A stretch of 64,000 nucleotides of DNA from NCBI GenBank assembly GCA_918797485.1, contig CAKKNE010000005.1, positions 4,836,001 to 4,900,000 on the forward strand, given 5' to 3'. The DNA is from Pelagomonas calceolata (taxonomy: Eukaryota; Sar; Pelagophyceae; Pelagomonadales; Pelagomonadaceae). The number at the start of each line of letters is the position of its first letter. The first letter of the stretch is position 1. The notes under the pieces are model-generated. The model worked only from the letters and a program-made list of their open reading frames with translations. It did not search any database and was not told the origin of the DNA. A program made the position numbers and the translations under genes. Positions 2,930 through 63,875 of this stretch are shown here, in pieces.

Positions 2930-4089
2930 CTAGAGCTCGTCGGCCAAGCGCGCCTGGTCGACGAGGCCCTTGGGGACACCCATCACCGAGATGAGCGACG
3001 CCATCCGCTCGTCGCTGAGCAGCGCCTGGAACTTCGGGTCCCGCAGGATCTCCGCGTACTTCACGTCGAGGCCGTCGCGCCGCGCTAATGCCTTCGCCGC
3101 GAATGGTTTTTGAAAGGCGAGGACTGCGTCCTTGTCCTCGAGGTCGCCCCGGAAATGCGTCTGCGCCCCGCCCGGGTGCTCGTCGTCAACCTCGGTCATG
3201 TCCGAGATCAAGTAGGAAGGAAATTCGGTCACCTTGAGGAACGCGAGCGTGTCCCTGAGCGCCGCGCCGTACTCGTCGTCGGCGTCGGCGGGCGCCTGTG
3301 TGGAAATCAAATTTCAGGCGCCCCACGCGACGTTGTCCTTGTGACTGCGTCTGCTCAATGGTGTGGAGATTCTACGCCATCGACGCGACGTTGTCCCCGT
3401 AACTGCGGCAGCACGATGGCGTATAACCTAACTCACTGGTTGATTTCCACACAGTCGGGTGCCTTGAACATGACGATGTGCATGACCTTGCCCCGATGCC
3501 GCTGCGCCGCGTGGTAGAAGGCGTCGCGGACCGGCGGCGCCGGCGGGTCCGCCGGGTCGACGGCCAGGATGGCGTGCATTTTCAGCGGGCCGCCGAAGAT
3601 CATGTCCACATAATCAGGGAGATAGGGCACAACTAACGGCAGCATGGTATCCTCGACCCACCGACTCAGCTTCTTTCGCCCTTTTTTTGATGTTGTAAAC
3701 GTAGTGACGTCGACCAACTCGTCGTAGGGCTTGAGGAGCAGCACGGCATTGCCGTGCGCCTTCGCCTCGGCGGCGGCGTACAACCGTAATCGCTCCGCCT
3801 GGTCGACGGCCCGGCCCACGAGGTCCGGCCCGTCTACCAAGTAGAACTCGGCCGGATATTTGAAGGATGCCGCCACGGCTCGAAATGCGGCCGCCGCCTT
3901 GCCCTCATCGGGCACCAGGGCGAGGACGCGGACGCCCACGCGTCCGCCGAACAACTCGTCGACTGCTTTCACACTCCTGAGCGTTCTGCAGCGGTCCGCC
4001 TGCTCGCCGTCGACAGCCGCGGCGTGCTGCAGCTGGCATAGCAGGGCAATCAGTGTGAGCGCGAGGGATCGCATGGATGGTGCGCGCAT
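2930..4089 (-). CDS. PDI-like ER protein lacking CxxC, C-terminal ADEL
   Basis: Exons 4089-3463 and 3295-2930; spliced 330 aa. MRSLALTLIALLCQLQHAAA (from the ATG at 4074 or 4089) is a clear signal peptide. Two thioredoxin-fold domains follow, resembling the b and b' domains of protein disulfide isomerase: EFYLVDGPDLVGRA in the first, then FGGPLKMHAILAV, GKVMHIVMF and VTEFPSYLISDM. No CxxC active site is present, so it is more likely a chaperone or client-binding PDI relative than an oxidase. A tail with DPKFQALLSDERMASLI looks like a DP/STI1-type repeat, and the protein ends LADEL, a DEL-type ER retention signal. An introner with an apparent GC 5' splice site interrupts it after VMFK; removing it joins APADADDEYG in frame. 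Confidence 0.75.
3296..3462 (-). mobile_element. Introner element, GC-AG intron of PDI-like gene
   Basis: Element 3296-3454 has CTGTGTGGAAATCAA at its left end and the inverted repeat TTGATTTCCACACAG at its right end. Flanking 8-mers are GCGGGCGC (3288-3295) and TCGGGTGC (3455-3462), 6 of 8 identical. In the sense of the gene the intron runs from the first 8-mer (GCACCCGA) to the terminal CACAG, so the 5' splice site is GC. An alternative in-frame GT lies a few bases further in (TGT|GTGG). Confidence 0.85.
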
Positions 4090-4480
4090 TGCTGGCAAAA
4101 GGTACAGAGCGATCTGTGCGGAGCCTGGTTGACCTATGCTGTGATATAGCCCGCTCGCGCGGTTCACGGCAGAATTAGCTAGCGGCATGTAAGACCACTA
4201 GCCAGCCGCGGGCGAAGCAGACTTGCAGCGCCCGAGCGGTCGAACCAGTCAAAAGTACACACGCTCGGCTTGCGTATTAGTACAAATAGCCGTGAGCTGC
4301 CTGCCCACTCAAGCTGACCGACACAAATCCATCGCTTGCCGCCGAAATAGCCCCCTCAGCGCTGCCACTGCAATCGCACGCCGTCGACGCGAACGATAGA
4401 ACAAACACGACGCAGCGCTCGAGCAAAGCACTGCCGCTGCAACCGCACGCCGTCGACGCAACACAGCGCTCAAACAAACA
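4090..4480. other. Divergent intergenic region with a 69-bp imperfect tandem duplication
   Basis: Spacer between the PDI-like gene and the 99-aa gene. Positions 4359-4427 and 4428-4478 are two diverged copies of one unit (GC[G/A]CTGCC.CTGCAA.CGCACG..., each followed by CCGTCGACGC and a CAGCGCTC word). It also holds the GCTAGC palindrome at 4178. No coding evidence of its own. Confidence 0.5.
4178..4202. repeat. GCTAGC near-palindrome (promoter-proximal family)
   Basis: GCTAGCGGCATG followed by TAAGACCACTAGC: inverted GCTAG/CTAGC ends around an asymmetric core. One of at least 13 similar intergenic copies in the window. It lies about 90 bp upstream of the PDI-like start and 280 bp upstream of the 99-aa gene. 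Confidence 0.65.
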
Positions 4481-4780: not shown

Positions 4781-4795
4781 GACACTGTAGTAGTA

Positions 4796-5512: not shown

Positions 5513-5706
5513 CGTTTGCTGGTGGCGCGTCGACGGCGTACGAGCGCTGCTGCGGCGCTGCGCTTGCGCTAGCTGGCTGTGGTGCCGCGGCGACGACGGG
5601 CGGCGTTTCCGACACAGAGCGTCCAAGGCGCGCTGGCAAGCTGTGTTTGGTGACCTCTGTGCGTACGAAACACACTAATGCGCGTCGTCTCCTCTGCCAG
5701 CATAAA

Positions 5707-5728
5707 GCTAGCGGACCAACATACTAGC
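5707..5728. repeat. GCTAGC near-palindrome, variant core
   Basis: GCTAGCGGACCAA followed by CATACTAGC. The ends match the family but the core lacks GTAAGACA. It lies about 195 bp upstream of the ZMAT2 start and 170 bp upstream of the SHOCT/Tudor gene, again in a divergent spacer. Confidence 0.45.
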
Positions 5729-5896
5729 ACCGCTCTCCCTGTTTCTTTGAGAGGGCTACTGGATCAAGACAGCGGCGTCGTCCGACGATCTACGACGAGG
5801 TTCTGTGGCCTCCGACGTGCCCACTCCCGATAACGTCGAAAGCGCGGCGCTTTGGGGCTGCCCCCGGCCTCAAAAGTCGACTGACAGCTCCCCACC

Positions 5897-6973: not shown

Positions 6974-6985
6974 CAATTATCACAC

Positions 6986-7833: not shown

Positions 7834-7883
7834 TAATCTTGGTCGAGAGACACAGCGCAAACAGAGCGCAAACCGCAACAAAA

Positions 7884-15315: not shown

Positions 15316-15321
15316 GTCAGG

Positions 15322-15385
15322 ACCGGGCTGCCGCTCGTGACGCCGCAGCGCACGCCACCGCGCGTTGCGGCCGACCCGCGCAGTC
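15322..15385 (+). promoter_or_regulatory. Candidate SECIS element of the GPx mRNA
   Basis: The 3' UTR contains GTGA at 15337-15340 and GA at 15373-15374, spaced to form a SECIS quartet. Between them CCGCAGCGC pairs with GCGTTGCGG (nine pairs, one G-U), closing a loop ACGCCACC that carries a CC where SECIS loops have AA or CC. Below the quartet CTGC and GCAG can pair. Folded by eye only. Confidence 0.6.
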
Positions 15386-15416
15386 GTTCCCGAACTAGTA
15401 AGTGTGCTGTGAATTA

Positions 15417-19039: not shown

Positions 19040-21612
19040 TTAAGCGTTCAAAAGCCCGTTCCACCACGCCTTGACTGCCGTGATGAAGACGAAGCCGAGG
19101 ACGCAGAGCATGAATAGGAGGAAGAGATAGGGGTCTGGCAGGCATACGCCGAGCCACCTCATGCGTCCCCGGAGGGGCGCCGCGGTGAGGGCCACGAGCG
19201 TCCCGGCGACCATCGCGAGCATCCCGCCGCCGTAGCTCTGGACGCAGCCCGACGCGCACGGGGTCGCGACGGTCGCCCACGGGCCGTCATCCCACCTCGA
19301 CGTGGCGATCTCCAGCAGCGCCCCGTACGCGCCGGCCCCGGAGACCGCGGCCGCGCCCGAGACGAAGAGGGCGCATCCCACGAGCGCCGTCTGCCGGCGC
19401 CACGAGGCCGTGCAGGACCCGACGATCCCGCCGAGGCGCCGCTTCGAAACGATGTAGTCGAGCTCGTAGGCCGCCGCGAACGCCACGAGGCCCGCGAAGA
19501 ACGCCATCGCGCGCGCCTGCACGGAGGCGTCGTAGATGCGCTGGCACGACGCGGCCTGAGCGGCATCATCGCCGCAGTGCGCCTTGATCTCGTACGTGGT
19601 CGAGGCCGCGTCGCTCGCATCCCTGCAAGGCTTGTCGAGGGTGCCGCAGTCCACGTCGAATTCGATGTAGCCCCGCCAGAGGTCGAGGCTCACCGTCATG
19701 ACCTGTGTGGAAATCAAAATTCACGGCGCGTCCGTGCCAAATCTTCGCGTCGACCTCCACGCCATCGACGCGACAACTGCTCGATGGCGTGGCGATGCCG
19801 GTTCCGCACCGCTCGACGGAACTAGCGCGGCCACGTCACCCGACACACTGGTTGATTTCCACACAGGTCATGACCGCGGGCACCCAAGAGCCGAAAAGGG
19901 CGCCAGCAGTGGACTCACCGAGGTCGTAGTCGGTCTTGGACCAGTGGCCTCGCGTGCAGAGCGCGAGGATCTGGAGGACGCCGGCGATGGTCCCCATGTA
20001 AATCGCGAGCATCAGGCGCTTCCCGGCGGCCTCCGAGATGCCGTCGCTCGGGGGTGCTTCCGTCGGCGCCGCGGGGCTCTCCTCCACGTCGGGTTCGCCG
20101 ACGAGGGCGCGCCGCCACGCCCGCAGCGCGCCGAGTTCCACCCTCAGATCCGCCGGGCCGCGCTCGACGAGGCGCTCGCGAATCTTGCGCGCGACGTCCG
20201 CGCGCTCCAGCGCGAACTCTTCGCCGACGCGCAGCGCCTGGAGCTCCGCGAGCAGCGCCCCGTCCCGGCCTCCGAATCGGGCGGTCCCCTCGAGCGCGGC
20301 CTCGACGCGGAGAAGGAGCGCCCCCTCGGCCTCGCGCAGCTGCCGGAGGTCGCCCTTGACCTGTGTGGAAATCAAATTTCGGCTCGATGGCGTCGTCGGC
20401 TCGACGGCGTGATGACCTAACTCACTGGTTGATTCCCGCACAGCCCTTGACGTAGGTCCCGTCCAGGAAGGGTCCCGCCGCGTAGGTCCCGTCGGCCTCC
20501 TCGCGCGCCTTCGCCTCGGCGGCCTCGCGCGCCCGCCGCGCCTCGGCCTCGACCTCGCGGGCCCGCGCCTCGGCCTCGGCCTTCTTGGCCGCGAGCGCTT
20601 TTTTCTCCGCCGCGTGTTCCGCAGCGAGCGCGCGCTGCTTCTCCGCGAGCTCGCGCCGCTCCCGCGCGTGCTCCTCCTCGAGCGCGCGCTGCTCCGCCTC
20701 GAGCCGGGCCTTCTCTTCGGCCGCGCGGCGCCGGGCGGCCTCCTCGCGCTGCAACCATTCGAGACCCTCGCACAAGCCGTCGCCGTTCGTCGCGCAGCAC
20801 GCCTGGACGTGCCACGGGCGGCCGAAGAATTTGCGACCGTTCAGGCCCAGCTTCTCCTCCAGCTCCCGGGGGTACAGCGCCGTCGGCACGTCCTGCTTGT
20901 TCGCGAAGACCAAGAGGACGGCCTCCCGCAGCCGCTTGTCCTTGCAAAGGCGGTGCAGCTCGTCCCGCGCCTGCTGCAGCCGGTCCGCGTCGGTGGAATC
21001 GACGACGAAGACGAGGCCCCGCACGTCTCCGACGTTGTTGTGCCGGAGGAGATCGTTAAAGGGATGGCCGAGGTCGCACGCCGTGAAGTTCCAGCCCGTG
21101 AGCTCGACCACCTCGAGAACGTGATGCGTGACCACCTCGCCCAGCTTGAGCTGGTGGAGGGCCGTCGTCTTGCCGGCGCCGGCGAGGCCGACCAAGAGGA
21201 CGGTCTTCGTCTTCGCCTCGGCGGCCCGGGCCTCCCGGGCCGCCTCGGCCTCGCGCGCGCGGCGCTGGGCGGCCTTCTGGAGCTCCTGGGCGCGCCGCGC
21301 ATCCTCGCGCGCGCGAGTCGCGGCGGCGAGCTCCTCGGCCGCGCGGCGCTCGGACGCTTCTTTCTCGCGCGCCTCCGCTGCCTCCTCCTCCGCGAGCTGC
21401 GCCTGCATCTTCGCGATGCGTTGCCTGAGCGCAGCCACTTCGTCCTCCTCGCCGACCGGTTCAGCCACGACCGCCTCGGGACCGGTTCCGCGCCAGGACG
21501 CCAGCCTCGTGAGCAGCGAAGGGCGCGCCGCGTCGGGGTAGTAGTCCGTGACGCCATGCCGCGTGGTATACACGTAGCCGGGGCGGCTGCCCGTGTACGC
21601 GCTACCGCCCAT
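19040..21612 (-). CDS. Arf-like GTPase fused to coiled coil and membrane domain
   Basis: Exons 21612-20452, 20360-19875 and 19702-19040; spliced 769 aa, all phase 0. Residues 60-145 are coiled coil. An Arf/Arl-type GTPase follows: G1 TVLLVGLAGAGKTTALHQLK, G4 LVFANKQDVPTAL, G5 CCATNGDGLCEGLEWL. The G3/switch II segment reads WNFTACDLGHPFNDLLRHNN instead of WDxGGQ, so the catalytic Gln is absent, suggesting slow or altered hydrolysis. A second long coiled coil (about 300-385) and a soluble helical region follow. The last 290 residues hold several hydrophobic helices (LMLAIYMGTIAGVLQILAL; AMAFFAGLVAFAAAYELDYI; LFLLFMLCVLGFVFITAV) with a Cys-bearing loop between. Membrane-tethering a small GTPase this way is unusual. 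The GTPase call is firm; the role is unknown. Confidence 0.8.
19703..19874 (-). mobile_element. Introner element, intron 2 of the Arf-fusion gene
   Basis: Element 19703-19866 with full inverted ends, flanked by perfect 8-bp duplications GTCATGAC at 19695-19702 and 19867-19874. It has the long-type core with the hairpin CACGCCATCGA...TCGATGGCGTG. The core faces opposite to the gene, yet excision of one duplication plus element joins PA|VMTVSLDL in frame. Confidence 0.93.
20361..20451 (-). mobile_element. Short introner element, intron 1 of the Arf-fusion gene
   Basis: Element 20361-20443 (83 bp). Perfect duplications CCCTTGAC at 20353-20360 and 20444-20451 (GTCAAGGG in gene sense, giving the GT). 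The right end is GATTCCCGCACAG, slightly decayed. Excision joins DGTY|VKGDLRQL. Confidence 0.92.
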
Positions 21613-21972: not shown

Positions 21973-23171
21973 ATGGCGATGCCTGTCGCGCACGTGATTC
22001 CCCCTTCGCTGCGGGCCTTCGGCATCGACGAGGTCCAGCCCCAGCAAAAGCTAGACCCCAACAAATATGAGGTGCCGCGCGGCGTCGACCGTCGGGACGC
22101 CTTCGACGCGACGGCGGCTGCTCGTCGAGCGTCGGGACGCCTTCGACGCGACGGCGGCTGCTCGTTGACGGTCGGGATGCCTTCGATGCGACGGCTCGTC
22201 GACCGTCGGGACGCCTTCGACGCGACGGCGGCTGCCCAATCGACCCGCGCAGGTGCTCGGCCAGGACATGCAGGTGCTGCGTATCCACTTGAATCGGGGC
22301 GAAAAGGCCCTGGCGGAGCCCGGGGCCATGGTCTACATGTCGGAGAACGTCGAGGCCGGCTGCGACTCGGCCAAGTGGTGGCCGCGCTGCATGGGCTGCG
22401 AGCCCTGCTGCTTCGCGACGTTCGAGGCGAAAGGCGACGGCGCCTACGTCGGGTTGACGCCGAACCGGCCGGCGAAGGTCCTGCCCCTCGTGTTGGGGGG
22501 GCGGCGCTTCCTCGGCAAGAAGGGCATGTACTTCGCGTCGACGGGGCACGTGGACGTGGACTTCAACATGGATCTGAACCCCGTGACCTGCTGCTGCGGC
22601 GGCCAAGGCATGATCCGCCAGGTCCTGAAGGGCGACGGCATCGCCTTCATCGGCGCCATGGGCGTGCTCACGCACAAGGTGCTGGCGCCGGGCGAGAAGC
22701 TGATCGTGGACACCTGCGTGGAAACCAAAATTTACGGCGCGTTCTCTCGACCTCCACGCCATCGGCGCGACGCCTGCCCGATGGCGTGGCGATGCCGGTT
22801 CTTCAACGCTCGACCGAGCCAGGACGGCCGCGTCATCGCCGAGAAATGACTTAGTGAAGAGTTGTCGGGTGCACCCGACGCACTTGTTGATTTCCACACA
22901 GGTGGACACGAACAGCGTCGTCGCCTGGGAAGAGACCGTGGAGTACGGCGTCAAGAAGAACTCGGGCGGCCTGTGCATGTGCTGCTGCGGCGGCGAAGGC
23001 TTCTTCTCGACGCAGCTCACGGGGCCCGGCGAGGTCTACGTCCAGAGCTATAGCCACGCGAAGTTCAAGCAGTACGCGGTCGACTGGTACCTGGGCGCGC
23101 ACCCCATGACGCGCCAGGGCGGCGCCGCGTTCGGGGGCGCGGCGCCCGCGGCGGAGATGGACCGGTCCTAA
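21973..23171 (+). CDS. AIM24/DUF124 family protein, paralogue A
   Basis: Exons 21973-22071, 22253-22705 and 22902-23171; spliced 273 aa, all phase 0. AIM24/TIGR00266 proteins are beta-rich; yeast Aim24 is a mitochondrial inner-membrane protein tied to MICOS, while bacterial homologues are of unknown function. Family hallmarks: LNRGEKALAEPGAMVYMSEN, then a Gly-rich core and AFIGAMGVLTHKVLAPGEKL. Cys clusters CMGCEPCCF, VTCCCGGQGM and CMCCCGGEGFF are striking. The tail ends AAEMDRS, shared with the two neighbouring paralogues. No clear presequence. Confidence 0.85.
22072..22252 (+). mobile_element. Decayed introner with expanded internal repeats, intron 1 of AIM24-A
   Basis: Intron GTGCCGCG...CCGCGCAG; the following exon begins GTGCTCGG, a weak match to the first 8 bases, as expected of an old target duplication. 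Inside are four copies of a 35-45 bp unit built on TCGGGACGCCTTCGACGCGA, with GGCGGCTGCTCG between. Typical TIRs are not visible; the CTTCGACGCGAC core relates it to introners. Excision joins NKYE|VLGQDM in frame. Confidence 0.75.
22706..22901 (+). mobile_element. Introner element, intron 2 of AIM24-A
   Basis: Element 22714-22901, perfect duplications GTGGACAC at 22706-22713 and 22902-22909. Left end CTGCGTGGAAACCAA, right end TTGATTTCCACACAG. Long-type core with hairpin, in the same direction as the gene. Excision joins KLI|VDTNSVVAW. Confidence 0.95.
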
Positions 23172-23187
23172 AATTCATCCAATTAAA

Positions 23188-42161: not shown

Positions 42162-43636
42162 ATGCTCACCTACGCCACAAGGTCAGCCCTGCTCCTGAGG
42201 CCGCTCATTCAGAGCACCAGAGCAACGGCTCGAGCTCTCTCAGCCACCCCTTACCTGGACCGCACGCAGCAGGGCCCGGTGTGGCCCACATTAACACAAA
42301 AACCGGACGAGAAAACCCTGGAGAAGGACGGCAAGGGCGTCTGCGCCTGGCTCGGCTCCGCGAGCTCGAAACCGGCGGACCTTGACGCACAGCTCGCCGC
42401 GCGCGTCTACGACCTCTACCTGCCCGTCTACTACTGGTGCAAAGACGTCGTGGAGAAGAACCCCACCAAACCGACGGTCATCTTCATGAGCGCGCCGCAA
42501 GGCTGCGGGAAGACGACGATCTGCGACGCTTTGGTCGAGCGCTTCGCGGCCGACGGCAAGCAGTGCGCCGCTCTGTCGTACGACGACTTCTACCTGACGC
42601 ACGCGGAACAGAACGAGGTCGCGAAGACCCACGAGCACAACCGGCTCCTGGAGTTAAGGGGCAACGGCGGCACGCACGACCTCCAGCTCTTCGACGACGT
42701 GCTGACCTGTGTGGAAATCAAATTTCTCGCGGCGCGTCTCCACGCCATCGACGCGACGCCTGCTCGATAGCGTGGCGATGTCGGTTCTTCACCGCTCGAC
42801 GGAGCTAGCACGGCCGCGCCATCACCGAGAAATGACTTAGTGAAGAATTGTCGGGTGCACCCGACGCACTGGTTGATTCGTGCTGAATCGTCGCGTCGAC
42901 CTCCACGCCATCGACGCGACGCCTGCTCGATGGCGTGGCGGTTTGGGTCTCTCACCGCTCGACCGAGCCAGCACGGCAGCCTCATCGCCGAGAAACGACT
43001 TCGTGAAGAATTGTCGGGTGCACCCGATACACTGGTTGATTTCCACACAGGTCCTGACCGCCCTGAAACGCGACGGCAAGGCGAAGGCGCCGCGCTACGA
43101 CAAGACGGCCTTCGGCGGCTTCGGCGACCGCGCCGGGCTCGTGGACGTCGAGGGCGCGGACGTCGTGCTGGTTGAGGGTTGGATGGCGGGGTTCAAGCCC
43201 GTAGCGTCCCGCGTCGACGCGTCGACGGCGCCGAGGGGGTCACGGTCGCATCGACGGAGCCGAGGGGGTCACGGTCGCATCGACGCAGGTCGGCGCCGCC
43301 GCCGCGACGGCAGTCGACGTGGACCTTGGCGCCGTCGACGCGTGCCTGGGCGCCTACGCGCGGTGGGACGCGCACGCCGACGCGTGGCTCGTCGTCGCGA
43401 TCGATTCGCCGGCGGACACGGTCTACGGCTGGCGCCGCGAGGCCGAGCGCCGCGCGGGCGGCGGCCTGAGCGACGAGCAGGTCCGGGACTTCGTCGGGCG
43501 CTTCCTGCCTTCTTATGAAGCGTATTGCCCGGCATTATACGCGGCGGCGGCGGGCAGTGGCGTCGACGCGAAGCCCACGCTGCGGCTCGACGTCGACACG
43601 ACGCGGTCCCCCGTCGGCGCGGTGCGCGGCGGCTAG
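42162..43636 (+). CDS. GLYK: D-glycerate 3-kinase (photorespiration)
   Basis: Exons 42162-42698, 43051-43200 and 43289-43636; spliced 344 aa, all phase 0. GLYK phosphorylates D-glycerate to 3-phosphoglycerate, the last step of photorespiration. MLTYATRSALLLRPLIQSTR is a targeting peptide. The P-loop VIFMSAPQGCGKTTICDALV lies near residue 110, SYDDFYLTHAEQNEVA near 155, then VDVEGADVVLVEGWMAGFKP, DSPADTVYGWRREAERRAGG and VRDFVGRFLPSYEAYCPALY, all standard in plant-type glycerate kinases. The end DVDTTRSPVGAVRGG resembles the normal 'ID..R.P' finish. Introner 1 is a tandem composite; intron 2 is a decayed one. Confidence 0.93.
42699..43050 (+). mobile_element. Composite (two-unit) introner, intron 1 of glycerate kinase
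   Basis: Outer target copies GTGCTGAC (42699-42706) and GTCCTGAC (43051-43058). Two long-type units are joined near 42886: the first lacks its last nine bases (TTGATT, then stops), the second lacks about 33 bases of its left end (starts CGTGCTGAATCGTCGCG). Only the outermost TIRs survive. Excision joins LFDD|VLTALKRD. Confidence 0.92.
43201..43288 (+). mobile_element. Decayed introner-like intron 2 of glycerate kinase
   Basis: GTAGCGTC...CGACGCAG; the next exon starts GTCGGCGC. Inside, a 29-bp unit (GCCGAGGGGGTCACGGTCGC then ATCGACG) occurs twice in tandem. Excision joins GFKP|VGAAAATA. Confidence 0.75.
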
Positions 43637-43978: not shown

Positions 43979-46900
43979 TAGTACTTGAACGCCACCGCCA
44001 TGCGATGGAACTTTTCCAGCACGACGGGCGCGATGGCGTTGAGCGACTCGTGGATGAGCTCGAGGAAGAAGTGCTCCGCGTCCTCGTCCGACAGGTCGAG
44101 CCGGAAGCGGTCCTGGAATTTTTGGGAAGCGTCCTCGCTCAGGTGCTCGACGCCCGCGTCCTTCATCAGCGACATTAAATTCAGTAACAGGGGCGCGTGG
44201 CGTCGCAAGCAACAATACGCCTGGCAGCACTTGGTTCGGAACTCCGTCCAATTGGCTCCGTCCGGGTAGCCCATGGCCTCGGCCATCTCTCGAGTTAACC
44301 GGAACGGCGGCGGGTACGGCTTTGGATCTCTACCGAGGATGAAGCCGAAGTCGATGTGGAAGAGCTGGCCGTTCTTGCGGACCATGATGTTGTCTAAATG
44401 GCGATCGCCGACGCCGAGGAGATATGTAATCACGCAGTACCCGGCGCACGACTTCGTGAACGCGTCGACGGCGTCCGCTCTGACGCCGTTCGGCGCCGCG
44501 GCGTCGGGGTTATTCGATCTCAGATAATTCAGGATCGACGACTGATTCTCGGCGAGAATGTCGGATATGGCCTTCGAGTCCTCTACAAATTGCACGATGC
44601 CGCTCGAGGCCCCCGTAGCTAGAGCCCCGTAGCAAGTCAGCTTCATGTCCAGGTTCACGCGCTTAAGCAATAAATCCATAAGAAGTACAAACCTGTGCGG
44701 AAATCAAACATTCGGGCGCCCCGCATGTTGAAGGTTTCTCGAATAAGCGAACACTGGTTGATTTCCACACAGGCACTGACTGCAGCACGACCTGGTCCTG
44801 CCGCAAATCGTCGCCGTGTTTAACAATGACTCGGTACGGTTTTGTAGTTGTGGGCTCGTCCGGTGCCGTCGGCGGCTTCGCGGGTTTGTCACCGAAGGCC
44901 GCGTCTCGTAACGCGTCGAAGAAGCCGCCGTCCTGCGTGAACGATATGAGGCGCGTCGAAGGCGTGGAGCATCACACATTGAAGCCACGAAGGTACACCG
45001 AGGCGCGCGGTCGACGGCGCCCGCTTCCTTGGCGGCGGCGGTGGAGGCATTTGCGGCGGCGCCGCAGTCGTCTGCGGCCTTCGAACCGTGAATCCAACGA
45101 GCGAAGGCGTCAAGGCGGATTTAAACATGGTCGGCGACGAAGTCGGCGCGTGCAGACCGCTTATCATAACATCTGGATCGAGTGGGCACGGGACGCCGCG
45201 CTCGACAACTAAGGATGGCGTCCGCAGCGCTCCAAGCGCCTCCCTCAACTTCTTCTGCTTCTGAGGTGCTCTCCCCTTCTCGTCTTTGGCGCGCGCCTGC
45301 GCCTCCAAGACGCCGACGATGAGTTCCTCCTGGGCTCGCAGCGTCGCATACACGTCTGGCGCTTTCTCGGCGAGGTCCTCGGCGAATCTACCTCTAAACA
45401 CGCGATACGTAGCACAGGACTGCTCGTCGGTCGCGTCCTCCGCCTGCGTGAGAATTGAGGCGTCGCGTCGATGGCGTAGAGGGGGGGGGAAACGCGACAT
45501 ATCGAAGCTGTTTGACGCCGCATGCGCACGCCTACTTTCAGATACCACCACACGAAATTTGCGACCGCGATTGATTGCGCAGCTCTCTCCGAAAGAAAGC
45601 TAGCGAGAGGCGAACGACCCTTCTCGTCCTTCTCGTCGTAGCGCAGCGCTTGCACGAGCTGTAGCAAGTAAGTAACTAGCTCGATGTCAGACGCCTGGCG
45701 AAGAGCGTCGACGGCGAAGGCTCGCACGACGCGTCGCTGGTAGGCTTGATCTGGTCCCAATAGTTTAATGGCATCCGCCACATCTATCCGAGTCCACTGC
45801 TTGAGTAAAGCAGGTACCTGTGCTACTTCCGTCGCGTCGCGCCAATCAACGGCTAACAAGAACTTCGGGAGGGCTTTCTTCTCCCCCGTAAGCGCATGCC
45901 GGAACTTCCACAGCAGCTCGAGGTCCGACGACGCGAGCGAATCGCCGGGCGCCGACATAACGCGCTTTAGCGCTCTTCCTTCCTCAGCGTCGGGCCGCAG
46001 CTCTGTGTCGACCAAGGCGCGCGTCGCGTCTCTGGCTAGCGCACCTGCGCGGGAATTGCGGTGAGTGACGCGCCGCGTCGATGGCGTGACGCTGGAAACG
46101 CGCGATACTTCTCCTCCGCGGGCGTTCCGCGAGCGGCCTGGGCTTCGTCATCATCGAAGTCGTAGACGATCACGTCATTGTTCGTCTCGAGTCCCGCCTG
46201 CTTCAGCGCCTCACTGAGTTTCGAGGCATCGTCGCCGGTATCAGCGGCGTCCGCGACCAGTCGGGCCAGCGCAGCATCCACATCGGGCGCCACCGGCGGC
46301 GGGCCGTAGGGCCGCTCCTCCCAGAGCACAGGGTGGTCGAACTTGGGCAATTCGACACAAAGGAAGGCTCTATCAGCCATCGCGCGCTCGTCGTCGTGGC
46401 AGTGCGGCGCCCGCAGCCACTTCTCCCGATCATTTAAGGCGGCCCGCTGCTCGCCGATGCGCTTCAACGCGAGGTCGTCGAGCCAGTCCTCCCGCTCGTC
46501 CAGGATCGACCCGTGGTCGCCGCCGAAGCCCTCGCGAAAGACCTCGGCCCGAAACAAGTGGTCGTGCGGCGCATATCTTTTATACCCGCCCTCGGCCTCG
46601 GCGTCGCCGCGCAGCTCCCCGTGGAAGGCGCCCAGCCGGCCGCCGACCTCGGCGCTCGCGTGCGCCGCCTCGAGCTCGGCCTCGGCGGCCTCGGCGTCGT
46701 CGTGGAGCGCCAGCTTCTGCAGCCCGCCGCGGAAGACGCCCCGGGCGTCGAAGACGGGCAGCGACGCCGCCGCGACGATGGCGCCGGCGCCGTCGCGCAC
46801 CGTGAACACGAGCAGGCTGTCGCGGCTCAGGTCCCGCACGCGCACGGGCAGGCCCAGGGCCTCGCCGTAGAAGAACGCGACGCGCTGCTCGTCGTACGAC

Positions 46901-49151: not shown

Positions 49152-51341
49152 CTATGATCCAACGACCGCCCAGAGCGCGTCCTGGCCCAGGGCGACTTTT
49201 CCGATCGTCTTTTGGCGCGCCTTGCCGCGCTTCTGCTTCTCGAGGAGCTTCTTCTTGCGGTCCTTCCCTAGGACAGCTTTGCTCCCGCCAGTCGTCAACA
49301 CGTCCTTCCGGAGCGGAGCGATGCGTGCTCTCGCCACGACGGCGCCGTTGACGCGGGCCTGGATGATGCACTCGAAGAGCTGGCGCGGGACGTGCCGTCG
49401 CAGCTTCTCGACGGCGCGGCGGCCCCGGTCTCGGGCATCGGCCGACCGCGCGGCGAAGGCCAGCGCCTCCACTGGCTCGCCATTCAGGAGCACGTCGACC
49501 TTCGCGACGTCCGCGGCCTCGTACCGGGGCAATTCGTCGACGGCTAAAGTAGCGTGCCCTCGGGACGCATGCGCCAGGCGCTCGCCCAGTCCGTCGACGA
49601 CGGAGGCCCACGGTGCGGCGCAGGCGATGATCGAGCGGCCGTCGAGTGTCGACTCGATGCCTGTCTGCTGCGCGCGCGCCGTCTCGAGGTGCTCTAGGCC
49701 TGGGTGGAATCAAATTTCAGGTGCCCACGCCAAACCTAACTCACTGGTTGATTTCCACACAGCCCGAGGCAGGCGCCGACGTGTTCGCGCGGCGTCACTA
49801 CTTCGATGTCGACAACCGGTTCCAGTATATCTGAGACCTCGCGGCTTAGTTGCGCGGCGTCCGGCCAGTCGTCGAGGGCTTCGAGCGTCGTTACGTTCCC
49901 ATCCTTCCACCTCACCTTGTAAGGCACTGTCGGGCTCGTGAACAAGACCTCGGCGCCGAATTCGTCACGCAGTCGCTGCCTGAAGACATCCATATGAAGC
50001 AACCCGAGGAAGCCGAGCCGCAGCCCCGCACCCAACGTGGGTCGTGCTTTGGCCTCGCGGCCTGTGCATAAATCAAATTGTCGCGACGTGTCTCCGCCAC
50101 TGCTGAATCGTGGCCTCCACGCCATCGACGCGACGCACTGCTTGATTTCGACACAGCTCATGGCGGACGGTCACGCTCGCATCGTTCAGCGCAAGGCGGT
50201 CGACAGCGCGAGACATCTCATCAAAAAGACCACCATCGGGCGGAAAGACGGACGCGAAAAGGCCAGGCTGCGTCGCCGGCGGCAGCGGATCCACGGGCTC
50301 GAGACGGTCGCGTTCTGTCGCAAGACATAACGTGTCGCCGACGCGCGCCTGGCGCACATCACGCAAGCCCGCCACGAGGTATCCGACGCATCCCGCGTTC
50401 AGGAACCCCGTCCGGTGGTGCGCTGGCGTAAGCAGCCCGAGTTCCTGGACGGTATGCTCCTTGCCGTCTCCTCCTAGGAAGGCAATGCGGTCGCCCTCCC
50501 GCAAAGAACCGTCGACGCACTGGATCACGGCGACGACGCCCCGCGTGATGTCGTAGCGGCCGTCCAGGACGCGGCACCGCGTCGGCCGAGCTCTTCTGTC
50601 GTCCGCGGGTTGTTTAAAAGCGTCGATGATCGCGGGCATCACCCCATCTACGCCGTCACCGCTCTTCGCCGAGACGTAGAGCACGTCCTCCGGATCTTTG
50701 GTAAATTCTAAAGCTGCGAGCTCGAGCGCGACTTCCACCGCATCGGCCGTCGGGAGGTCTATCTTCGACGCGGCGCAAACGAGCGGCACGCCAGCAGCGC
50801 GCGCGGCCGCGGCGACTTTCAAGGTCTGAGCTTCGATACCTTGCGAAGCATCCACAAGTAAGAGCGCGCCGTCGCAGGCGCCGAGGCTCCGCCGCACTTC
50901 GTGGGCGAAGTCCGCGTGGCCCGGCGTATCCACGAGATTCACAAGGTACTCACCAACAAGCATCGACGCCGTCACCGCCTTGACCGTAATGCCCCGCTCG
51001 CGCTCGACGTCCAGCGTGTCTAAAGCCGACTGCCCGACCGCGTCCGTCGAGGCGATGTTGCCGTACATTTCGAGGAGGCGCTGCGCTAATGAGGACTTCC
51101 CGTGGTCAACGTGGGCGACGATGCTGAAGGTGACCGTTTTCTCGACTGGCAGTGCTGCCAGCCGTTGCTCGTCGAGCGCTGTGATCGATGACGCGCAGCG
51201 CTGCGCCAGCGCACGCTTTATGCGCCTGCACTGCGACCGATCGCACTGCGCTGAGACATGCGACGCATTGCGCTGCAGTGCAGCTTGCAAGCGTCTGCGC
51301 GGAGCACCAGGCGCAGCCAAGCGCCGAAGGAATTGCCGCAT
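49152..51341 (-). CDS. GUF1: Translation factor GUF1 / EF4 (LepA), mitochondrial
   Basis: Exons 51341-50165, 50061-49771 and 49699-49152; spliced 671 aa. GUF1 is the organellar LepA GTPase that acts on elongating ribosomes. MRQFLRRLAAPGAPRRRLQA is an Arg-rich mitochondrial presequence. GTPase motifs: SIVAHVDHGKSSLAQRLLEM (G1), RGITVKAVTASM (G2), NLVDTPGHADF (G3), AASKIDLPTAD (G4), VSAKSGDGVDG (G5). LepA-specific regions: LGAGLRLGFLGLLHMDVFRQ and, at the end, RKKKLLEKQKRGKARQKTIG then KVALGQDALWAV, the LepA C-terminal domain. Both introns are introners with GC 5' splice sites. A plastid copy would normally show AFxP; none here, so mitochondria are likely. Confidence 0.94.
49700..49770 (-). mobile_element. 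Short introner, GC-AG intron 2 of GUF1
   Basis: Element 49700-49762 (63 bp): CTGGGTGGAATCAAA...TTGATTTCCACACAG. Target copies CTCTAGGC and CCCGAGGC, 6 of 8. Gene sense starts GCCTCGGG. Excision joins EHVGA(C)|LEHLETA. Confidence 0.92.
50062..50164 (-). mobile_element. Introner, GC-AG intron 1 of GUF1
   Basis: Element 50062-50156 with CTGTGCATAAATCAA and TTGATTTCGACACAG. Target copies CTCGCGGC and CTCATGGC, 6 of 8; gene sense starts GCCATGAG. Core CCACGCCATCGACGCGACG without the partner arm. Excision joins ASVTV(R)|REAKARPTLGAG. Confidence 0.9.
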
Positions 51342-51579: not shown

Positions 51580-52835
51580 TTAGTAGACCTCGACGCGCCA
51601 CTGGCCCTTCTTCTTCAGGTCGGCGACGAAGTCATCGTACGTCAGGCCCTTCTTCCGGCAGACCTCCTTGAGCATGTCCTGGATGCCGGGCATCATGCCC
51701 TTGAGGCCGCAGAAGTACATGACGGCGCCGTTCTGGAGGCGCTCAAAGATCTCGTCGGCGTACTCCTCGACCTGTGTGGTCAAATGTCGGTCGAGCGCTG
51801 CGCCGTCGTCGCGTCGAGCGCCGCGCCGTCGACGCGTCCCCCGCCGCAAATCAAATCGAAGCGACTGTGCGACGCCGCAACGGACCTTGTCCTGAATGTA
51901 CATCTTGCCGCCCTTCTTGTTCTTCTCCTCGCGCGAGAGCGCGTAGTCGACGCGGAAATTGTCGGGAAACTTGCTCTTGGCCGCCTGCCACCTGTGTGGA
52001 AATCAACCAGTGAGTTAGGTGGCGGGGCGCCCGGAATTTGATTTCCACACAGCCTGCCACTCCTCATCATATAAGAGGGCGTCGCTGTTGGCGACGCCGA
52101 GGAAGAGCCACGCCAGGCCCTTGTAGGCCTCGCCGGCGGGCGTCGTCTCCGTGAAGAGGCGGCGGATGAAGCCGCGGTACGGGGCGATGCCAGTGCCCGT
52201 CGCGACCATGATGTAGTCCGTGTCCGCCTTCTCCTCGGGCATCAGCCTGCGTGGAAATCAACCAGTGAGCTAGAGATACAGACGCAGCGCCTGGTATTTG
52301 ATCTCCACACAGGCGCTCACATCACTTTGCCAGTCGGGCCGGTCATCTTAACTTGTTCGCCCGCCGTGGCGTCGCACAGGAAGTTCGAGCAGACGCCCTT
52401 CTTCGCCGGGTCCTCCTTGCCCATGTCCGGGTCCCAGTACGTCGCGCGGCGCACGCACAGCGACGACGTCTTGCCGGCCATGTTGTCGCCGTAGCGCGAC
52501 GACGCGATGGAGTAGAGGCGCACCGTGTGCGGCTTGCCGTTCTTCGGGTTCGTGCCCGGCGGGATGACGCCGTAGGACTGGCCCTCCCAGTAGGGCATGT
52601 TGCCCTTGTGGTCGAAGATGATGTGGCACGTCTCGCCGGTCGCCTCGGGGCCGACGATGCGCTTGCAGCTGACGACCTTGGCCGTGTAGGGGCTCTTGTT
52701 CTTGAAGGTGTTCACGGGGACCGTGGACTGGTCCCAGTAGGGCGAGGCCTCGAGGAAGTCCTGCTTCTTGCCGGCCGGCGACTCCGTCAAAATGGTGCCC
52801 TTGTTGCCGCCGAAGAGGCCCGAGAGCAGGCCCAT
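51580..52835 (-). CDS. Ferredoxin-NADP+ reductase, plastid type
   Basis: Exons 52835-52321, 52246-52061, 51991-51886 and 51771-51580; spliced 332 aa from [13 protein letters not shown] transfers electrons from photosystem I ferredoxin to NADP+. FAD site: [15 protein letters not shown] and [37 protein letters not shown] site: [28 protein letters not shown], then [34 protein letters not shown] and the terminal QWRVEVY. The plastid presequence is not obvious: the frame opens upstream with an AG before [14 protein letters not shown], so a targeting exon may lie further 5'. Three introners split it; removing them gives perfect FNR sequence. Confidence 0.94.
51772..51885 (-). mobile_element. Decayed introner, intron 3 of FNR
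   Basis: GTCCGTTG...TGACCACACAG; the next exon starts GTCGAGGA. The 3' TIR CCACACAG is intact, the other is ATTTGATTTGCGG. Excision joins MYIQDK|VEEYADE. Confidence 0.85.
51992..52060 (-). mobile_element. Minimal introner, intron 2 of FNR (element 61 bp)
   Basis: Element 51992-52052, perfect target copies CCTGCCAC at 51984-51991 and 52053-52060 (GTGGCAGG in gene sense). It is nearly all TIR plus ACCAGTGAGTTAGGTGGCG. Excision joins LLYDE(E)|WQAAKSKFP. Confidence 0.95.
52247..52320 (-). mobile_element. Short introner, intron 1 of FNR
   Basis: Element 52247-52312: CTGCGTGGAAATCAA...TTGATCTCCACACAG. The 5' splice site is a strong GTGAGC. Target copies are now weak (3 of 8). Excision joins GPTGKV(M)|LMPEEKAD. 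Confidence 0.9.
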
Positions 52836-58837: not shown

Positions 58838-58948
58838 GGCTTCGTCGCGCAAACGAGATATGGTCGTGAGCGCAATCAAATAAATTCCCTAGCACGCCTA
58901 CTGCGAGCGCTGGCGCTGCCTACGCGGCTGTGGCGGCTGTGCTTGCTT

Positions 58949-58971
58949 GCTAGCGTCTTAAGGCCACTAGC
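58949..58971. repeat. GCTAGC near-palindrome
   Basis: GCTAGCGTCTTAA followed by GGCCACTAGC. It lies 112 bp upstream of the ALDH start. Confidence 0.6.
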
Positions 58972-59029
58972 AACAGCTTCCAGTAGAAATGGACGCTCCA
59001 GCCGCCTATTAGTCGGCGACGCGCGGTGT

Positions 59030-59072
59030 CTCCCCCCCAGGGACTCCGCCCACTAGTCCTAGCACCATAACA
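59030..59072. repeat. 43-bp interspersed repeat, copy 2
   Basis: CTCCCCCCCAGGGACTCCGC then CCACTAGTCCTAGCACCATA; nearly identical to 11941-11983. It sits directly before the 3' end of the EGF-like gene. Confidence 0.55.
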
Positions 59073-59091
59073 ATATATTTTGAAACAAAAT

Positions 59092-61412
59092 TTACCCTGT
59101 CGCTCCGCACCATGCGTCGGTACAGAGTGCTTTCCGGTAGCCGCAGTCGTCCTGCTTGCCGGGCCCGCCGACGCCGTCGCTGCTCGCGTAGCCGGGAAAG
59201 CACTCGCACTGCCCGGTCGATCGATCGCACAATCCGCGGCCCGAACATTCGAGCGACTCTGTTGTGCCCGTCACCGAGACCAGGGAGGCGTCCGACGCGG
59301 CCGCGGCGCCGTCAACGAAGAATACCACTGAGCCGCCGCCGATTTCGTCGCCGAAGTTCGAGTCGAACAATTGGCTCGTGTCCGCGCTGAGGTCTGGGAG
59401 ATCACCGTGTTCCGTGACGAAGGCGACCGTCACCGCGTTCACGGAGAGGCCTATGTCGGTGCACGTGGAGTTGCCCGACGAGAAGAGAACTATGACGTCG
59501 CCGATATTCGTCAGCCACTCGAGGGCTTCCTCTAATTCTTGCCTCGAGGCGTTGTACGCGATCGGCAAAGTCGTCTTCTGTCTAAAGCTAAGCGTAAGCG
59601 TGCCAGCTGTCCCGGCGCACTCGAAGAGCTGTACCTCGTTAACCTGGCCGTAGGTATTGGGGTCGTCGCCGTACGTACATTCCCGCTCGCTACAATCGTA
59701 ACCAGTCCAGCCCTCGTCGCAGATGCAGCCGTATATTCTATCCGCATCCCACGTGTTGCCGTTGTTGGGGTCAGAACCGTACAGGCGGGGGTCCGAGTCG
59801 CCGTTCGAAGTGGCAAGTAGCGCCATCTCGCGCATCGTCGCGCACCGCCCGTGCTTGTTGCACTCGTTCGTCAGCCCGCCGGGGCACTGAATAAATTCGC
59901 ACGCGTTGCCCGTGAAGGGTACCGCGCAGGCGCACTCGCCCTTCGTCGTGTCGCACGTGCCCGCGCCACTGCATACCTCGAGGACGTCGTGGCCGACGTT
60001 GTCTTCGGACCTACGTGGAAATCAAAATTCGGGCGCCCGACGCCATCGACGCGATGTTGTCTCCGTAGCTGCGTCTGCTCGATGGCGTGAGGTGGCCACG
60101 CCATCGACGCGATGTTGTCTCTGTAGCTGCGTCTGCTCGATGGCGTGGGGTGTCCAGGCCATCGACGCGTCGGCTCGATGGCGAGGAGGCTCGAATGACC
60201 TAACCCGCTGGTTGATTTCCACACAGCTTCAGACGGATAACTGAACCACGCGAGACCCTTCGGACACGTCCGCAAGGAACAGTCGGCGCCCGTGAAGCCT
60301 TTCGCGCAAGAGCATCGATAGGTACTCAGGTCACAAATGCCCGCCCCGGAGCACGCGGTCATCCCCGGGCATTCGTCGATCGCCGTGGCCGCGAAGCCGC
60401 AGTCGCCGCGGTTTCCCTCGTTGCCGTAGCCGTCCGAGCTCTTGAACGTGTCGCCGTTCGTGTCCAGGCACAGGCACGTCGCGTCGAACGGGTTGCAGAT
60501 GCCCCGGTTCGAGCACTCCTCGTCCTCCTTCGTGCCCTTCTTCGAGACGAAGTCGGCGCCCAAGCTGTCCGTAAACACCGTCTGGCCGTCGGCCGAGACC
60601 TGGATCGTGCCCGCGAGGTCGTCGTCCAGCGGCACCAACGGAGGCAGGCTCCCGAAGTCCTGCGTGAATTCGATGCGCACGACGTTGACCGAGTCCGTGG
60701 TGCACGCCGTCCCGTTGTCGATCGAGTAGGTGACGTCGACCTCGGTGATCGCGGCGGACTGCTCGAGCGCGGCCTTGAGCTGGTGCTCCTTCATGCCCGT
60801 CCGGATGTCTCCGGAGGCGTGGCCCGCCATCAACAGAACGAACGTCCCGCCCGTCGCCATGCACTTGAAGTACTGGACCTCGTTCTTCTGGTCCGGCGTC
60901 ATGGGGTCGTCGCCGGAAGGACAGCGTCGGAACGCGCAGTTGAACACGGCGTCGTAGGGCGAGTCGCAGACGCAGCCGTACATCTTGTCCGCGTCCCAGG
61001 GCGTCTCGTAGACGAACTGCTGCGAGTCCTCGTTGTACTGCGACGACGCGAAGTTCCGCATCGACACGCACTTGCCCTTGAAGCCGCATTCGCGGTCGCA
61101 GGCCAGGTGCTGGCACGCCTTGCCCGTGAAGCCCTCGGCGCACTCGCACTCGCCCGTCCCCTCGTCGCAGAGGCCGCGATTCGAGCACTCGGCCCGCGCA
61201 TGCGCGACCTCGTCGCTCGACGCGACGTCGGCCCACGCGTAGTGCGTCGGGCACTTCCGGTAGCCGCAGTCGGCGCCCGTCCAGCCCGAAAAACAGGTGC
61301 AGCGGCCGAAGGGGTCGCATTTGCCCTTGAGATTGCAGTTGTTGGGGCACTGCGCGTCGACCGCCGCCGCGATAAAGATCACGAGGAGGCGCTGCCTCTG
61401 GTGCCCAGGCAT
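59092..61412 (-). CDS. Secreted EGF-like repeat protein
   Basis: Exons 61412-60235 and 60010-59092; spliced 698 aa. Signal peptide MPGHQRQRLLVIFIAAAVDA. At least seven EGF-like modules, e.g. CPNNCNLKGKCDPFGRCTCF, CSNRGLCDEGTGECECAEGF, CSGAGICDLSTYRCSCAKGF and CSGRGLCDRSTGQCECFPGY, alternate with Cys-poor segments such as NEVQYFKCMATGGTFVLLMA and NEVQLFECAGTAGTLTLSFR. Those two segments are clearly related, so an EGF + globular unit was duplicated. No membrane helix: a secreted or cell-surface protein, perhaps adhesive or an extracellular matrix component. The introner joins FSYP|SEDNVGHDV. Confidence 0.85.
60011..60234 (-). mobile_element. Introner with tandem hairpin cores, intron of the EGF-like gene
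   Basis: Element 60011-60226 with CTACGTGGAAATCAA and TTGATTTCCACACAG. Target copies CTTCGGAC and CTTCAGAC, 7 of 8. Inside, the unit CGCCATCGACGCGATGTTGT ... GCGTCTGCTCGATGGCGTG occurs twice and a third, shortened time, making a row of potential hairpins. Shares the CGCGA.GTTGTC core with the element at 3296, a second subfamily. Confidence 0.93.
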
Positions 61413-62660
61413 GGCGCCCTTTAAGCGCTGGACCTCGTCCGTTGCAATGAACAGCGAAGAGTGGGCGTCCTTTCTCTCTTGCCCAAGGAGAGCGGGCCTG
61501 GCTTGCGCCTGCGTACAGACCGCCGCCCCTCCAGCGGACCGGCGCTCCTATGAGGGGGGTAGCTAGGTAGGAATATGCTGTACGTTGGTTTTGATGTCCA
61601 GCAGCTGGCTTGGCGGTGCTGCCGGCCATGCCCGCAGCGGGGCTTTGGCGTGGGGGCTCCTTATGATGTCGTCGGGTCCCATGCAAAGCGGGCTGCCATA
61701 TAATTGCGATGCTGCTTTGATCTCCTAATTAGCTGCCGACGGCGCCTAATTCACGCTAAAAACCGAGCATTTGAAAAATACGCTATCGGCGCGAGGGAGA
61801 GCCGCTTGGAGCCCTGGGCGCCCGAGACACGGACTCCTAGGAAAATTTAGATAAATCTCGGCGACCCCCAATTTTTACACCCCCTTCGCTTCGCCTTCCA
61901 GGGCTCCTCAGCGTCAATTATCGTTCACAGGGACGGATAGTACCCTCGGCTGCCCTCGCGTAACTTGGATTTGGTCGTTTCGGTGCTTTTAGTCGACTGC
62001 GAGACGGTCCCGCCCGAGACACATAATACGACACTATCTCCAGATTCTCGAGCGCTCGAACGCGGCCGCAGTGTCCGGGGGTACCCCACGCATGTGCCCG
62101 AGCCGTTTCCGTCTTTCGTGCATGCCGTCTAGCGATGGGGTGTAGGTCGCACCGCGGGGCGGTACGCCGAAAGTAATCTCAGCGACAGAATTGGTGCAGA
62201 TAGCTGCCCCTGCGCGTTCCACTGGCTTCAGTACCTTCTCGGGCAGCCTCGGCTCAGCAAAAGTTTTTCGCGGGGAGCCTCGCGCGGCCCGCTAAGGTGC
62301 GTCGAAGGGCCGAACTTCAGGCCAGCTTTTCTCGGCCGCTACAGGCGCACACTTGTCACGGCCAACGCGGCTGGGTAGCCCTGGCTATGGGCTTTCCAGC
62401 GCACCAGCCCGTGACAAGTGTGCACCCGATGGGGCTGAGCACTGGACGTGTTTTGCCCCCAGTGGCGCCAGCTCTAGACTCAGTGGCGCTCCTCGAAGCC
62501 TGGACGCTGCACCAAAAGCTGCCAGCCGCAGCAACTCTCGCGCCGGGACGCCTCCGAGCCCTATCTGACTGCTCGTGAGGAAAAGAACAGCCCACATTTC
62601 GTGCGGGTACACGCAGCCCGAAGCTTTTGCGCGCATCCAAAGGGCTGCCCAGAGAGCAGG
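61413..62660. other. 1.25-kb intergenic region with a long-armed inverted repeat
   Basis: No convincing gene. 61700-62000 is AT-richer than its surroundings. A perfect 15-bp inverted repeat GCACACTTGTCACGG (62347-62361) and its complement (62409-62423) encloses 47 bp, forming a possible cruciform or a small element. No GCTAGC palindrome found. Confidence 0.45.
62347..62423. repeat. 15-bp inverted repeat
   Basis: Arms GCACACTTGTCACGG and CCGTGACAAGTGTGC, 47 bp apart, about 240 bp upstream of the spermidine synthase start. No target duplication recognised. Confidence 0.6.
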
Positions 62661-63875
62661 ATGCCCGCCGAAGAGGCGGCGACGAGCGACAAAAAGCCGA
62701 AGCAGAATGGCTGGCGGGCGCTCCTTCGCGCGCGGCGGCGCCGCGAGAAGCGGGAGAAGCGGCAGGAGATGATGATCAACCACAAGCCGAGCCTCTTCCG
62801 CTGGCCCACGCGGGCTCTTCCAGCGGTGGCCGGCTGCCGCACGGAGCCCCACAAGCCGTGTTGCGTCAGCTGCGACCAGAACGTCGGCTCGCATTTGGTC
62901 CTCGACCTTGGTGCTCGGCTGCTGGCGACGAGATCCGCATTCCAAGCGATCGAGGTCTTCGACACGGAGGCTTTCGGCCACGTGATGACCATCGACGGCG
63001 ATCTGCAGCTTACGGAGCTCGACGAGTGCCACTACCACGAGATGATGGTCCACGTGCCGCTCGCCTCGAGAAAACCCGGCGCCGGCGCGCCGCGCGTGTT
63101 GATCATCGGCGGCGGCGACGGCGGCTGCGCGCGCGAGGCGCTGCGCTGGCCCGGCGCGACCGTCACGCTCGTCGACATCGACGCCGCCGTCCTCGACGCC
63201 GCGCGGCGCTTCTTCCCGGCGTGCGCCGCGGGCCTCGACGACCCGCGCACGGAAGTTCACGTTTCAGACGGCGCCGCGTTCGCGGCGGCGGCGGCTGCGC
63301 GCGGCGACACCTACGACCTCGTCATCTGCGACTCGACGGATTGTAGCGCAGCAGAACGAGCGTCCGGGACGCTCTACACGGACGCCTTTTTCGTCTCAGT
63401 CGCGGCGCTCGTAGCGCCGGGCGGCTTCTTCTGTAGAAATTATACAAGTCTGCTCCTGTGCACATGGAAATCAAAATTTCACGGCGCGTTCGCTGAATCG
63501 TCGCGTCGACCTCCACGCCATCGACGCGACGCCTGCTCGACGGCGTGTGCACCCGACGCACTGTTTGATTTCCACACAGGTCTCCTCTGGAATACTGATG
63601 AAGCCGCAGCGACGCTGCCCCGCTACGCCGCGCATTTCGCGCACGCTAGCCCTTTTGTATGGAATCAACCGACATACTCGTCGGGCTCCTACTCGGCCCT
63701 CCTCTGCGGCGCCGCCGCGCCGTGCGCGACGCGTGACCTCGCCGCCATCGCCGCGACCCTCGGCGAGACGGACTACTGGACGCCCGCGGTTCACCGCGCA
63801 GCATTCGCTCTCCCCGCATTCGTGGCGCGCCGCATGAGTCCCTCAGCGCCCCCCGCGCCGCCCAACGAGTCCTAG
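62661..63875 (+). CDS. Spermidine synthase-like aminopropyltransferase
   Basis: Exons 62661-63447 and 63580-63875; spliced 360 aa. Transfers an aminopropyl group from decarboxylated SAM to putrescine. The N-terminus to about 50 is basic (REKREKRQEMM). Core: NVGSHLVLDLGARLLATRSA, VMTIDGDLQLTELDECHYHE, PRVLIIGGGDGGCAREALRW (SAM site), VTLVDIDAAVLDAARRFFP, TYDLVICDSTDC (catalytic Asp), then the spliced end NYTSLLWNTDEAAATLPRYA and QPTYSSGSYSALLCG, matching the family's TIPTYPSG. The TD in DSTD favours spermidine or thermospermine synthase; the substrate is not decided. The start at 62661 avoids an upstream low-complexity run. Confidence 0.9.
   Translation: MPAEEAATSDKKPKQNGWRALLRARRRREKREKRQEMMINHKPSLFRWPTRALPAVAGCRTEPHKPCCVSCDQNVGSHLVLDLGARLLATRSAFQAIEVFDTEAFGHVMTIDGDLQLTELDECHYHEMMVHVPLASRKPGAGAPRVLIIGGGDGGCAREALRWPGATVTLVDIDAAVLDAARRFFPACAAGLDDPRTEVHVSDGAAFAAAAAARGDTYDLVICDSTDCSAAERASGTLYTDAFFVSVAALVAPGGFFCRNYTSLLLCTWKSKFHGAFAESSRRPPRHRRDACSTACAPDALFDFHTGLLWNTDEAAATLPRYAAHFAHASPFVWNQPTYSSGSYSALLCGAAAPCATRDLAAIAATLGETDYWTPAVHRAAFALPAFVARRMSPSAPPAPPNES
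63448..63579 (+). mobile_element. Introner, intron of spermidine synthase
   Basis: Target copies GTCTGCTC (63448-63455) and GTCTCCTC (63580-63587), 7 of 8. Element 63456-63579, left end CTGTGCACATGGAAATCAA with a 4-base insertion, right end TTGATTTCCACACAG. A shortened long-type core with the hairpin. Excision joins RNYT|SLLWNTDE. Confidence 0.93.

Follow-up and report, generated by a model that had tools for sequence, protein, structure and literature searches.

Sixteen putative transposon-derived introners in 64 kb of Pelagomonas calceolata DNA, with splice donors probably drawn from 8-bp target-site duplications

In a 64,000-nucleotide stretch of the genome of the alga Pelagomonas calceolata (GenBank assembly GCA_918797485.1, contig CAKKNE010000005.1, positions 4,836,001 to 4,900,000; hereafter the window, with positions counted from its first letter), we found 16 elements that are very probably transposon-derived introners whose splice donor comes from the target-site duplication. 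That they are spliced we infer from the DNA; we favor this reading because of the duplication statistics, an asymmetry tied to the coding strand, and protein homology. A first-pass annotation had attributed all introns placed in the window to such insertions. The claim is strongly supported for the 16 that have ends and duplications, but its extension to every placed intron goes beyond the evidence.

The elements are recognized by their ends. The end word CTGTGTGGAAATCAA or its reverse complement occurs across the whole window at 29 sites with up to three mismatches and at 32 with up to four, whereas 50 first-order Markov sequences give expectations of 0.46 and 4.9. Thirty of these 32 are termini of 16 elements, 61-344 bp long, with inverted ends CTGTGTGGAAATCAA/TTGATTTCCACACAG. 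The left-end sites at 48727 (three mismatches) and 58079 (four mismatches) lacked a partner and were dropped. For 24992-25191 and 63456-63579 the left end is too changed to appear in the four-mismatch list, and its position was set manually with the help of the duplication. Ends vary by 0 to 7 mismatches (ungapped) among the 16. Seventeen introns with inverted ends had been counted previously and two recognizable ends are found in 16; their coordinates, inverted ends, 8-bp duplications, genic position and excision rule all stand. Terminal inverted repeats mark these as introners of the DNA-transposon type, as does the occurrence, within 64 kb, of introns of similar sequence in unrelated genes: the copies are spread over 11 genes, two of which are related to each other (AIM24 family). 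Seven are in sense and nine in antisense orientation relative to the gene. All 16 lie within gene spans, yet because these spans already cover 79% of the window, the preference for genes is only weak. The window has a GC content of 66.5% and contains no tRNAs and no Rfam matches at gathering score.

Alignment of the 16 elements shows that both ends are common to the copies and that longer copies contain a palindromic core, CCACGCCATCGACGCG...CGATGGCGTGG. Several resemble internal deletions, the smallest being 61 bp. Two 203-bp copies on opposite strands (E6 and E7) are 91% alike over 214 nt including flanks, 42707-43050 (E9) consists of two copies fused head-to-tail, and 60011-60226 (E16) has three core units in tandem.

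When the two flanks of each element are compared position by position, the excess over the cross-element background is confined to eight positions, and those to either side match near background, so that the duplication has a fixed length of exactly 8 bp. At duplication positions 3-8 the two copies agree in 77 of 96 comparisons, against a mean of 32.6 (sd 5.2) and a highest value of 59 over 20,000 permutations; position 1 is uninformative because G is nearly constant there. Seven elements match at all eight positions, as the first-pass annotation had reported (duplications in gene sense throughout). These are E2 (intron 19703..19874, minus strand; element 19703-19866; GTCATGAC) and E3 (20361..20451, minus; element 20361-20443; GTCAAGGG), which share an ARF-domain gene that excision of E2 joins from two predicted open reading frames; E4 (22706..22901, plus; element 22714-22901; GTGGACAC) in a first AIM24-family gene; E5 (24984..25191, plus; element 24992-25191, left end decayed; GTCCGCTG) and E6 (25297..25507, plus; element 25305-25507; GCCCTGGA; GC donor), together in a second AIM24-family gene; E7 (26505..26715, minus; element 26505-26707; GTGCTGCC) in a gene with an RSN1_7TM (calcium-dependent channel) domain; and the 61-bp E14 (51992..52060, minus; element 51992-52052; GTGGCAGG) in a ferredoxin-NADP reductase (FNR) gene.

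The other nine duplications are imperfect. Seven of eight positions match in E9 (42699..43050, plus; element 42707-43050) of a glycerate kinase gene, E16 (60011..60234, minus; element 60011-60226) of an EGF-repeat gene and E17 (63448..63579, plus; element 63456-63579, with a 4-bp insertion in the left end) of a spermidine synthase gene. Six match in E1 (3296..3462, minus; element 3296-3454; GCACCCGA/GCGCCCGC; GC donor), whose gene has no Pfam family and is thioredoxin-like only by our guess, and in E12 (49700..49770, minus; element 49700-49762; GC donor) and E13 (50062..50164, minus; element 50062-50156; GC donor), both in a GUF1/LepA gene. Five match in E10 (44693..44780, minus; element 44693-44772) of a Vps34 phosphatidylinositol 3-kinase gene, four in E8 (27787..27887, minus; element 27787-27879, with changed ends), which shares the channel gene of E7, and three in E15 (52247..52320, minus; element 52247-52312), which shares the FNR gene of E14. 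A palindromic target, GTnnnnAC, was considered and rejected, as it fits just 3/16 duplications. Transposons of the hAT superfamily make 8-bp duplications at targets of the pattern nTnnnnAn; here position 7 is A in 5/16, and position 2 is fixed by splicing.

The coding strand, set for each gene from coding frames and homology, provides the second line of evidence. On it, the upstream copy of the duplication starts with GT (12) or GC (4) in every element, although GT and GC together account for 18.5% of the dinucleotides in the gene models. If the elements simply preferred palindromic targets, the mirror dinucleotides AC/GC should be equally frequent at the other end, but they occur in only 6/16 copies (hypergeometric 1.2e-4 against 16/16). 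The filter is thus tied to the coding strand, as would be expected of splicing but not of removal at the DNA level. In gene sense the 3' end of the element is AG in 16/16. The sequence pattern of the co-option expected of introners, with the donor taken from the duplication and the acceptor from the element, is present in all 16, and homology favors it at 8 of the 10 junctions scored. Retention would shift the frame in 14/16 and bring a stop in the incoming frame in 12/16. Of the two elements that leave the frame intact, 51992-52052 has an in-frame stop and E17 is open and in frame, its status as an intron being judged by homology.

Protein homology completes the argument. Our home-made gene finder, which uses codon usage and bare GT/GC-AG rules and is blind to repeats, produced 37 gene models, with an intron overlapping 14/16 elements and the other two elements lying between split gene models. 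Homologue alignments run continuously across the junctions of FNR (454 bits), GUF1 (395.6 bits), spermidine synthase (145.4 bits) and glycerate kinase (211.6 bits), and the Vps34 match rises from 263.5 to 426.8 bits once E10 and three introns without ends replace the introns of the gene finder.

We propose a model where the elements are non-autonomous DNA transposons, introners akin to miniature inverted-repeat transposable elements, with a transposase presumably supplied from elsewhere. The transposase would make a staggered 8-bp cut in an exon target, and the inserted element would be flanked by two 8-bp copies of the target. Since each end of the element reads ...CACACAG outward, an acceptor AG would be supplied in either orientation. 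Where the upstream copy starts with GT or GC in coding-strand sense, that dinucleotide would serve as donor, the intron being copy plus element, and splicing would restore the earlier coding sequence to the base. Selection presumably removed insertions that lacked a GT/GC donor. Over time, the element interior and the duplicated copies may decay while GT/GC...AG stays.

How far such decay might extend is raised by seven further introns that lack both ends, placed by homology (three in Vps34, one in FNR, one in glycerate kinase) or by frame (in two more genes). The Vps34 introns, all on the minus strand and without clear ends, are 46045..46103, with core ACGCCATCGACGCG and a GC donor, 45444..45535, with the core present, and 44933..45086, whose core has one change; borders of the latter two are approximate. 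The decayed FNR intron, 51772..51885 (minus), is 114 nt long, a multiple of three, and has a CACACAG acceptor end. Borders come from the gene finder only for 22117..22252 (plus), which has core repeats of about 40 bp in the first AIM24 gene, and for 41083..41224 (minus), without clear ends, in an aminotransferase-domain gene. The second glycerate kinase intron, 43201..43288 (plus), has no useful resemblance to the elements (E-value 9.2). Six further introns with only the core or splice pattern had been listed; we place seven, of which six are core-like and 43201-43288 is not. The tandem repeats of about 40 bp with the core span 22074-22252 (plus), in or at the AIM24 intron, and some copies may be coding. 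Several gene-finder introns were set aside. Those at 1561, 3652, 7576, 7920, 18248, 29110 and 30087, all multiples of three, were taken as coding sequence of unusual composition; introns placed with the help of homology took the place of 43201-43264 and of five in Vps34, the one overlapping E10 not being among these; and 58786-59123 had merged two genes.

We masked the 16 elements and searched the remaining 61.7 kb of the window with a profile built from them; seven matches had E-values below 0.5. These seven, the best outside the elements, all fall in the six core-like introns (0.0018-0.23), which occupy 0.7 kb, and the FNR match extends into the terminal repeat (0.005). This supports common descent of the six introns and the elements. 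However, in five of the six the match is mainly over the 14-bp core, and 43201-43288 has none worth naming, so it is also conceivable, at somewhat below an even chance in our judgment, that the introns without ends are ordinary old introns and that the core common to six is a host motif rather than the relic of an insertion. The proposed series from fresh to decayed copies is accordingly seen among the 16, in duplications from 8/8 to 3/8 and ends with 0-7 mismatches, but the core is the main support for its last stage.

The host-motif alternative has to be taken seriously because the core also lies upstream of start codons. With up to one mismatch, ACGCCRTCGACGCG precedes the start codon by 27-40 nt, in coding-strand orientation, in 6/37 gene models (4447-4460, 5526-5539, 16130-16143, 16482-16495, 35147-35160 and 47145-47158), where the exon rate predicts 0.11 and the search range was chosen after seeing the hits. 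Exact cores precede 3/37 starts (0.02 expected). A few starts in this count are uncertain, two gene models having no initial ATG. The upstream core is possibly a promoter or 5' untranslated region motif. It is tempting to speculate, although we think it rather unlikely, that the hairpin core of the introners is itself a host promoter-proximal motif, such that introners carry a start-site motif into gene bodies or promoters were seeded by elements. In the former case, the core would be retained within genes for a role in transcription or in chromatin (open linker DNA) and would outlast the terminal repeats in old introns.

For the 16 elements themselves, the question is which donor is used. A donor inside the terminal repeat, after CTGT, would mean that each insertion adds 12 nt (eight from the copy and four from the element), or four amino acids, to the product. 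We consider this improbable, but a number of observations weigh against the duplication donor or against the introner reading as a whole. GC donors in 4/16 are unusually many. The inward site is itself GT (12) or GC (4) in 16/16 elements, and GTGG in 11/16. The blind gene finder picked it exactly in 3/16 (E1, E4, E12), while picking the duplication donor exactly in 4/16 (E3, E5, E9, E14). As the two donors are 12 nt apart, the frame cannot separate them, except in E15. The whole-codon totals once cited for ten genes, which are in fact 11, are consequently not decisive for the splice rule, since the inward donor keeps the same frame. Both spliced forms were scored for 10 junctions (E4-E6, E9, E10, E12-E15 and E17), and in glycerate kinase E9 the inward donor scores 2.7 bits better (214.3 vs 211.6), while E5 is neutral at 0.2 bits (142.4 vs 142.2). 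Further, no transposase family was detected among the 34 window proteins scanned with Pfam, and insertion-free sites are represented only by distant homologues and the AIM24 paralogues of the window, no close relative having been found. Lastly, the Fig. 2F legend of PMC9860276 describes the inward-donor mode for one introner family in a metagenome-derived genome of Aureococcus sp.

Nevertheless, 8/10 scored junctions favor the duplication donor, with E5 neutral and E9 opposite. It is ahead in Pfam bits for E4 (160.5 vs 150.8, +9.7), E6 (142.2 vs 135.5, +6.7) and E14 (84.3 vs 80.5, +3.8), in NCBIfam lepA bits for E12 (471.0 vs 468.8, +2.2) and E13 (471.0 vs 466.8, +4.2), in Vps34 for E10 (426.8 vs 418.3, +8.5) and in spermidine synthase for E17 (145.4 vs 141.3, +4.1). 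In E15 the inward donor yields a stop and the duplication donor is needed. Moreover, with an inward donor the start of the copy would be unconstrained, but it is GT/GC in 16/16, whereas the inward GT/GC is part of the shared repeat. Excision from DNA in the manner of ciliate internal eliminated sequences is highly implausible: precise removal of the element and one copy would give the same proteins, but it would be blind to the coding strand, where GT/GC starts number 16/16 against 6/16 in mirror, the acceptor ends are AG in 16/16, and the assembled DNA still contains the elements.

Three adjacent AIM24-family genes (21973-25987) contain one, none and two introners, with no position shared by eye, and the insertions therefore probably followed the gene duplications. 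Elsewhere in the window, a glutathione peroxidase gene at 14656-15315 (plus) has an in-frame TGA (NVASE-TGA-GKT), which we take to be the selenocysteine position of the family. Read through, it gives a GSHPx match of 119.6 bits; Rfam detected no selenocysteine insertion sequence element in the window at gathering score, nor at E-values up to 10 in 15200-15700. The predicted protein of 33535-34710 (minus), without a Pfam family, has a very acidic Asp/Glu-rich tail that is the source of the largest direct-repeat family in the window. Another, of 1021 residues (8583-11648, minus), has a 3'-5' exonuclease domain, a weak helix-turn-helix match and a long proline-rich N-terminal part.

The element is also found outside the window. 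In a prokaryote collection, the 19-bp end word CTGGTTGATTTCCACACAG occurs in one contig, NZGT01000054.1, filed under a Spirochaeta sp. metagenome-assembled genome (MED672). Positions 1432-1539 hold the same element, with one mismatch per end, perfect 8-bp copies GTCGGCCG and a GT start on the coding strand; excising it rejoins an open reading frame that matches the ecdysteroid-kinase-like (EcKL) family at 49 bits, and a second, decayed copy lies near 2204-2397. The contig is probably a misbinned eukaryotic one, that is, binning contamination in the reference collection. Viral contigs gave no match to three exact element patterns, and a text search of the literature for the end-sequence strings returned, among the matches listed, no introner paper by title.

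The window offers a compact and readable case of intron birth by transposition: its 64 kb hold 16 insertions in which the borrowed donor can still be seen, among them a fused dimer, derivatives of only 61 bp and introns with GC donors. Two questions become testable here, namely how much decay a new intron can undergo and still be recognizable, and whether the core has a regulatory role in the host. For pelagophyte algae the mechanism has already been published. In Aureococcus anophagefferens, Huff, Zilberman and Roy (2016, Nature 538:533) reportedly found introners whose two splice sites differ in origin, one coming from the duplication and the other from the element. Introners that have terminal repeats, duplications of constant length and shared splice sites have been described for Aureococcus and Micromonas (see PMC9860276, PMC9481584, PMC12768974 and PMC7789003), and the window is a new example of this mechanism. 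According to PMC7789003, A. anophagefferens introners have terminal inverted repeats and constant-length direct repeats, like those described here, and canonical splice motifs, unlike the GC in 4/16 of our donors; the likeness is one of description. Amoebophrya introners, as outlined in the same source, also have inverted and direct repeats at the intron ends and can fold into a hairpin, but their direct repeats are 3-5 nt and their splice sites mostly non-canonical, compared to 8 bp and GT/GC-AG here. PMC9481584 places Aureococcus introner introns near 210 bp, and our two 203-bp copies plus 8 make 211 nt. It also reports for Pelagomonas calceolata a peak in intron length near 210 bp, ascribed to Aureococcus introners and comparable to ours by length only, and few introns per gene (0.45), against 23 placed in 37 gene models here. 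A further parallel comes from Gozashti et al. (2022, PMC9860276), whose introner family 4 of Aureococcus sp. TARA_AOS_82_MAG_00129 likewise has an 8-bp duplication. Its donor lies 4 bp into the element and adds 12 bp to the transcript, whereas the evidence from the window favors a donor within the duplication itself.

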